Part shown: positions 45,017 through 55,517 of the stretch, piece by piece
Layout: each line of letters opens with the position of its first letter
Position numbering within the stretch: the stretch's first letter is position 1
Source: Bacteroidales bacterium
GTDB taxonomy: Bacteria > Bacteroidota > Bacteroidia > Bacteroidales > Salinivirgaceae
NCBI GenBank assembly: GCA_012519055.1
Contig: JAAYQU010000023.1
Coordinates: forward strand, 1-64,000
Reading direction: 5' to 3'
DNA length: 64,000 nucleotides
The notes under the pieces: generated by a model
Seen by the model: only the letters and a program-made list of their open reading frames with translations
Database searches by the model: none
Told to the model about the DNA's origin: nothing
Position numbers and translations under genes: made by a program

Positions 45017-45829
45017 ATGAAGAAAAAGGGAAATTCAAGAATTCTATATGTTGCTCAAGAAATATTTCCTTACCTACCTGAAAGCAGCATAGCAAACACT
45101 TGCCGATATTTACCGCAAGGTATCCAGGAAAAAGGAAAAGAGATTAGAACTTTTATGCCTAAATATGGCTGTATCAACGAAAGACGAAATCAATTACACG
45201 AAGTTATAAGACTTAGTGGAATGAATCTAGTTATTAACGATACCGATCATCCTCTAATAATAAAAGTTGCCAGTATTCAATCTGCAAGAATGCAGGTCTA
45301 TTTTATTGATAATGAAGACTATTTCCAGCGCAAGGCTGTTCTTGTTGATGATGATGGCAAATTTTTCGCCGATAATGATGAAAGAGCAATTTTGTTTGCC
45401 AATGGAGTTCTCGAAACCGTTAAAAAACTAAGGTGGTCTCCTGATATTGTTCACTGTCATGGATGGTTATCAGCAATTGTAACACTTTATGTCAAACACG
45501 TATATAATCAAAATCCGCTGTATGAGAACTCTAAAACAGTTCTAACGTTATACGATGAAACATTTGAGCACTCTTTAAACAAAGAGTTTTTCAAAAAACT
45601 TACCCGTGAGAATATTCCTGCATCTGCAATCAAATTGTTAGAAAAAGATCCCTCTTACATCAATTTGATGAAAACAGCTCTAGATGCGACAGACGCTATT
45701 ATAATTGGTGATAAAAACATCAATCCCGAGGTTTTAGAGTATGCAAAAAAGTCAGAAAAACCGATTTTGGAATACCACGAGGACGAAAAATGCGTTGATT
45801 TACATAACGAATTTTACGATCAACTTTAA
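45017..45829 (+). CDS. Short glycogen/starch synthase-like protein (GT5 N-terminal domain)
   Basis: Protein of 270 residues matching only the N-terminal Rossmann domain of GT5 glycogen synthases: YVAQEIFPYLPESSIANTCR, LPQGIQEKGKEIRTFMPKYG, LSGMNLVINDTDHPLIIKVA, PDIVHCHGWLSAIV. The C-terminal nucleotide-sugar domain, present in full enzymes near 480 residues, is absent. The usual lysine motif K-x-G-G is also replaced at the start. This compact form is typical of Bacteroidetes, where it sits before DUF4270. Glycogen synthase activity is therefore doubtful. It lies 16 nt upstream of the DUF4270 gene. Confidence 0.82.
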   Translation: MKKKGNSRILYVAQEIFPYLPESSIANTCRYLPQGIQEKGKEIRTFMPKYGCINERRNQLHEVIRLSGMNLVINDTDHPLIIKVASIQSARMQVYFIDNEDYFQRKAVLVDDDGKFFADNDERAILFANGVLETVKKLRWSPDIVHCHGWLSAIVTLYVKHVYNQNPLYENSKTVLTLYDETFEHSLNKEFFKKLTRENIPASAIKLLEKDPSYINLMKTALDATDAIIIGDKNINPEVLEYAKKSEKPILEYHEDEKCVDLHNEFYDQL

Positions 45830-53916: not shown

Positions 53917-55076
53917 ATGAAAAAAATATTGTTCAGTTCTACAGTTATCTCAATAATCTCACTGATTTTTGTTATTTACCTTCCGGCAATTGGATTGTAT
54001 GCAACCATTCTGTTTTTTGCTCTTTTTACTTTAGTGATGCCTAATGCTTCCAGCAGAATGCTAAACAATTGGCTATTAATCTATTTACCTTTTTTCGTAC
54101 TACATTCAATCCCCTTGATTATATTCAACTTTACTAAAAGCGAGTACTTATTAAAGCTATTTGCATTTTCCGAAATATCGTTCATATTAAGTGGTTTAGT
54201 CCCTGTGTTTATTTATGCCGCACTAATTATCAAACATCATAAACTTAATGGTTTAATATTAGTTGTTGCATATGCACTGTTTATTGTTACGGGCTTTTAC
54301 AGCTTGCATTTTCAGACATTTATCGCTGGTACTATATTTCTAATATTGAGTATTTACTTGCCGTTAAATCCGAATAATAGCTTTTTCAAAAACTTTTTGT
54401 TTCTATATTTTCCAATATTCGTTGTATATACGTTAAGTCTGCTTTGGGAACCACTTTTCGATGGTTCACATGTAGAAATGAACTGGTACACTTTACCTAT
54501 AAATTTGATAATACCCATCTCTATTCTTATTGGACTAAAGGTACGCCAAAGAAAATATAAGATAATTCGTATAATTCCGTTAGTAATTGTGTTTGCTTTC
54601 ATTGGCTTTATCGTGCATCCCAATTGGTCAACTTTTTTATTAAAAAGAGATGATATAAAAGAGATCCCTTCAATATGCATAATCTCAGATACAAATGATA
54701 CTATTGATATTTCAGAATCCTCGAAAATAGTTGTTCTTAACATTTGGTCTACCTCTTGCGGTGTATGTTTTAGAGAATTTCCAGAATATGAGAAGTTGTT
54801 TAACAAGTATAAAGACAACCCACGCGTGGATATTTATTCAGTTAATGTCCCTTTAAAAAGAGACAGTACCCACAATACTGTGGAACGGGTAAGAGAGAAG
54901 TACTGTTTCCCGATACATTTTGCTGAAAAATCTTTCTGTAGTAAGCTAAATATTCAATCTTCCCCAAAATGATTATTTTTAAAAACAAAGAATTAATTTA
55001 TTCGGGCTCACCTGAATACGAAAACAAAAATTATTGGAATTGTTACCGAATAATCGAAAAAGCAATACAACAGTAA
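53917..55076 (+). CDS. Membrane-anchored thioredoxin-like protein with in-frame break (frameshift)
   Basis: Frame 1 gives 351 residues to TGA at 54970. About seven or eight hydrophobic helices (1-240) are followed by a thioredoxin-like domain with VVLNIWSTSCGVC (Cys281-Gly-Val-Cys284). It stops at IQSSPK, just after the cis-proline. In the -1 frame from 54969 the fold continues (MIIFKNKELIYSG to IIEKAIQQ) to TAA at 55074-55076, exactly the missing last strands and helix. The join is C_CCA_AAA (54963-54969), a canonical -1 slippery heptamer directly before TGA. It is therefore a programmed frameshift, a real one-base deletion or an assembly error. Confidence 0.7.
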
Positions 55077-55207: not shown

Positions 55208-55215
55208 TATCTTTG
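55208..55215 (+). promoter_or_regulatory. -7 box (TATCTTTG) of rpmE2
   Basis: Perfect TAnnTTTG box 41 nt before the L31 start. A TTG at 55181-55183 is 24 bases upstream, a slightly long spacer. Ribosomal protein genes in Bacteroidetes commonly have such promoters. Confidence 0.6.
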
Positions 55216-55256: not shown

Positions 55257-55517
55257 ATGAAAAAAGGTATTCATCCCGAAAATTATCGCTTAGTTGCGTT
55301 CCGCGATATGTCAAATGACACTGTCTTTATTACTAGATCAACGGCTAGCTCGAAAGAGACAATTGAAATTGACGGAGAGACTTATCCTCTTATCAAATTA
55401 GAGATTTCAAACACGTCACATCCGTTCTTTACTGGTAAAATGAAACTTGTTGACACCGCTGGACGCGTTGATAAATTCCGAAGCCGTTACGCTAAGCATC
55501 TCGAAACAAAAAAATAG
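55257..55517 (+). CDS. rpmE2: 50S ribosomal protein bL31, type B (zinc-free)
   Basis: Ribosomal protein of 86 residues. [45 protein letters not shown] and [10 protein letters not shown] are the type B L31 signature, including SHPFFTG. No cysteine is present, so it lacks the CxxC zinc site of type A L31 and should be zinc-independent. It has its own promoter and an intrinsic terminator directly behind it. Confidence 0.97.

Follow-up and report, generated by a model that had tools for sequence, protein, structure and literature searches.

A perfect slippery heptamer, C_CCA_AAA, lies directly before the stop codon of a thioredoxin gene in a 64,000-nucleotide stretch of Bacteroidales DNA (hereafter the window), and the -1 frame past that stop encodes the part of the fold that the 0-frame product lacks. 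Does this arrangement represent programmed -1 ribosomal frameshifting, which would give a short and a full-length protein, or did the gene lose a base by an ordinary indel or an assembly error? The original prediction had put forward both readings.

The split reading frame

The 0-frame ORF (53917-54972, + strand) encodes 351 residues that comprise N-terminal membrane segments and a thioredoxin/TlpA-like domain with a CGVC motif. The gene is, as judged from its sequence, of the membrane-anchored thioredoxin-like, TlpA/ResA type. Residues C281, C284 and P350 are invariant in the first alignment (four sequences), so that both the CxxC active site and the cis-Pro are present, but the 0 frame ends after K351, and the product is truncated just past the cis-Pro. 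A complete thioredoxin domain is thus not found in one frame, as its tail lies in the -1 frame.

The last 0-frame codons are TCC CCA AAA TGA. The heptamer (54963-54969, + strand) matches X_XXY_YYZ in the 0-frame phase directly 5' of the TGA (54970-54972), and a -1 frame ATG overlaps this stop to form ATGA (54969-54972). The -1 frame tail (54969-55076, + strand) consists of 35 codons plus a stop at 55076; the -1 frame sequence is MIIFKNKELIYSGSPEYENKNYWNCYRIIEKAIQQ, and it encodes the C-terminal end of the thioredoxin fold. Joining this tail raises the Pfam scores from 25.4 to 33.1 bits for PF00085 and from 20.6 to 28.3 bits for PF13905. It joins the domain without a gap and aligns to intact homologues, in agreement with the original claim that the -1 frame supplies the missing end of the fold. 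The frame break observed at 54963-55076, including the heptamer and its phase, is accordingly confirmed. The placement of the stop had been described less accurately: TGA is indeed the 0-frame codon after the heptamer, an arrangement shared by many standard sites, but during slippage the A-site would hold AAA, not the stop.

Upstream of the junction the -1 frame stays open over no more than 8 codons (54945-54968), which places the frame change within about 27 nt. It is confined to the overlap that is open in both the 0 and the -1 frame (54945-54972, + strand). We rejected readthrough or recoding of the TGA, because the 0 frame reaches a TAA seven codons on (54994-54996) and agreement with the family is confined to the -1 frame. 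Phase variation at a homopolymer is unlikely, as the runs are only 4 bases long.

Homologues at the break

A profile search with the window protein and the three first homologues retrieved relatives in Bacteroidales, Flavobacteriaceae and others, and for all loci with a match across the cis-Pro we inspected the nucleotide sequence there. A single continuous frame runs through the cis-Pro in all 35 distinct homologous loci (22-39% identical). The stop follows 30-47 residues past the cis-Pro in 34 of them, compared to 36 residues in the window, while the remaining locus (L047) runs off its contig. CCCAAA is present at the cis-Pro site in none of the 35 loci, all of which are distant (39% identity at best), and neither is the combination of motif and frame arrangement conserved in any of these distant relatives. 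The homologues therefore bridge the break in one frame, as expected for a pseudogene or sequence error caused by a one-base indel. The lost-base reading gains support from this pattern because relatives carry a single intact frame, which the original prediction had itself named as the mark of an indel, albeit for close relatives and not for distant ones such as these.

Membrane-anchored TlpA/ResA-like thioredoxins of other Bacteroidota (for example Winogradskyella, Lutibacter, Olleya and Candidatus Symbiothrix; loci L030-L036 and L003-L005) likewise possess N-terminal membrane segments, a cis-Pro and a tail of equal length, and share with the window protein a CxxC in the family-conserved position. 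They differ in their single intact frame and in the lack of a slippery heptamer. Two Flavobacteriaceae contigs (L045, 4001-5496, and L039, 4001-5138) each carry two adjacent copies of a membrane thioredoxin gene, and in one of the two L045 copies the cis-Pro is replaced by Ser.

Position of the frame change

We scored the window protein, with a frame switch after each codon of the overlap, against a profile of 29 homologous domains from which the window was excluded. The switch after 54960 scores best with 130.7 bits, whereas a switch at the heptamer reaches 127.1 bits; the best-scoring place accordingly falls at 54958-54962 (+ strand). The upstream switch yields the aromatic residue that the family has before the cis-Pro: each of the 29 profile sequences has Y, V or F in this column (349), and the -1 frame encodes Phe there, whereas the 0 frame, and hence slippage at the heptamer, gives Ser. 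The upstream switch scores higher because Phe fits this column and Ser does not; a Ser produced by slippage at the heptamer would be an unusual residue beside the cis-Pro. This is suggestive of a frame change upstream of the heptamer, although the difference of 3.6 bits is modest and not conclusive.

Stimulatory elements and chance occurrence of the heptamer

Stimulators usually begin some 5-9 nt past the heptamer, although some genuine -1 frameshift sites lack them. The sole clear hairpin here, ATTCGGG-CTCA-CCTGAAT (55000-55017, + strand; -8.2 kcal/mol, z -2.9 in RNA folding), lies inside the -1 tail, has no T-run after it and starts 30 nt downstream of the heptamer, which is too far for a usual stimulator. 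A Shine-Dalgarno-like motif is not visible in the 32 bases upstream of the heptamer (54931-54962). Neither a structure (hairpin or pseudoknot) at about 5-9 nt past the heptamer nor an upstream SD-like element was thus found, and we agree with the original remark that a strong downstream pseudoknot is missing.

The window's 47 longest non-overlapping ORFs (19,001 codons) provided the background frequency of heptamers. In-frame X_XXY_YYZ occurs 191 times (1.0% of codons), which implies that about 8% (7.8%) of 8-codon overlaps hold such a heptamer by chance. Among the 47 ORFs, the one at 54963 is the sole in-frame occurrence of the exact C_CCA_AAA, so that the precise motif together with its position at the stop is less common than the 8% figure. 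In the 2.7 Mb genome CCCAAAATGA occurs 13 times, compared to 5 times for a reversed control; among the eight CCCAAAATGA sites that were read out, the thioredoxin site is the only one where a long ORF terminates and the -1 frame extends it.

Gene distribution and genomic surroundings

A whole-protein relative was not found at 1e-20 in other genomes of the genus or family (G001-G004), and the best matches in G001-G005 reach only 1e-9 to 1e-13 and cover the thioredoxin part. The gene is therefore accessory and dispensable. The flanking genes for an ABC transporter ATPase and rpmE2 lie apart from each other in relatives, which leaves no syntenic interval for comparison. A sample of four conserved genes from the window (metG, lon, groEL and glmS) proved to be full length, and the assembly is consequently not generally indel-ridden; this mildly favours a real mutation over poor assembly, without deciding between them.

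Further features were observed in the window. A Bacteroidota-type -7 element, TAnnTTTG, is found at 55208, 49 nt upstream of the start of rpmE2 (ribosomal protein L31 type B) at 55257, and no such element is visible immediately before the thioredoxin ORF. A 270-residue ORF at 45017-45829 (+ strand) aligns to glycogen/starch synthase models over their N-terminal part alone, about 230 of 480-490 positions; it may be the short form usual in the group.

Origin of the frame break

Programmed -1 frameshifting at C_CCA_AAA, with a short and a full-length thioredoxin as its products, gains from the exact X_XXY_YYZ match in the right phase with an adjoining stop, from a -1 tail that completes the fold and from the shift-prone nature of C_CCA_AAA in E. 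coli (PMC4066793). Bacterial programmed -1 sites such as those of dnaX and the IS1/IS3-family transposases likewise combine X_XXY_YYZ with a 0-frame stop shortly after. Unlike these, the window locus has neither a conserved motif nor a stimulator at the usual spacing, and it is not a mobile element. The heptamer and the frame break occur in none of the 35 homologues, the -1 frame upstream of the heptamer already provides the fitting residue next to the cis-Pro while slippage would place a Ser where the family has only Y, V or F, and a stimulator at the correct distance is absent. The programmed reading of the original prediction is not supported by these comparisons, and we consider it very unlikely. 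It is equally improbable that the locus represents a lineage-specific, unstimulated -1 site, which would provide a small share of full-length enzyme and be absent from all distant relatives.

The heptamer could also act without being programmed. In E. coli, C_CC.A_AA.A shifts at above 0.10% without stimulators (PMC4066793), which makes trace slippage at C_CCA_AAA possible, and a little full-length protein might then arise from an indel pseudogene or an erroneously assembled gene. This would be compatible with an ordinary indel or error, but we see no evidence that the product is expressed or selected for, only very little of it would be made, and we give such slippage little chance. An even smaller chance falls to translational coupling, in which a restart at the ATGA, where the ATG overlaps the TGA (54969-54972), would produce a separate 35-residue tail peptide that complements the truncated domain: the family members are single chains, and the split falls mid-fold, away from a domain boundary.

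In our view the break is with high probability an ordinary one-base indel, and the gene thus a pseudogene, or else an assembly error, in an accessory thioredoxin gene, and the heptamer is best taken as coincidental. A single-base change near the 3' end would have broken the frame, most likely at about 54957-54963, where the heptamer begins or just before it. With translation ending after the cis-Pro, the protein would lack the C-terminal portion of the fold and probably be inactive or unstable. The break may be a recent indel or an assembly base error, two origins that look alike in sequence, and the X_XXY_YYZ match would have arisen by chance at the overlap's edge.

According to a survey of frameshifted genes, sequencing errors or indels are the expected cause of unclustered frame breaks that homologues bridge, and frame breaks are enriched near gene 3' ends (PMC3711429). 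The singleton frameshifted genes and pseudogenes catalogued there with GeneTack (PMC3711429) likewise show a one-base break near the 3' end and intact bridging homologues; we see no difference at our locus except for the coincident heptamer. Against an indel or error stand the position of the shift-prone C_CCA_AAA immediately before the stop, and the -1 tail, which lacks decay as if it were still translated. The intact tail would be equally expected if the break were recent or an error. The distance of the homologues (39% identity at best) likewise leaves a small probability for a site particular to this lineage.

If the site were programmed after all, it would be a rare chromosomal frameshift outside mobile elements that controls a redox enzyme. 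For annotation, the locus calls for caution: a perfect heptamer beside a frame break is insufficient to indicate programmed frameshifting, as about 8% of such overlaps here would contain one by chance.
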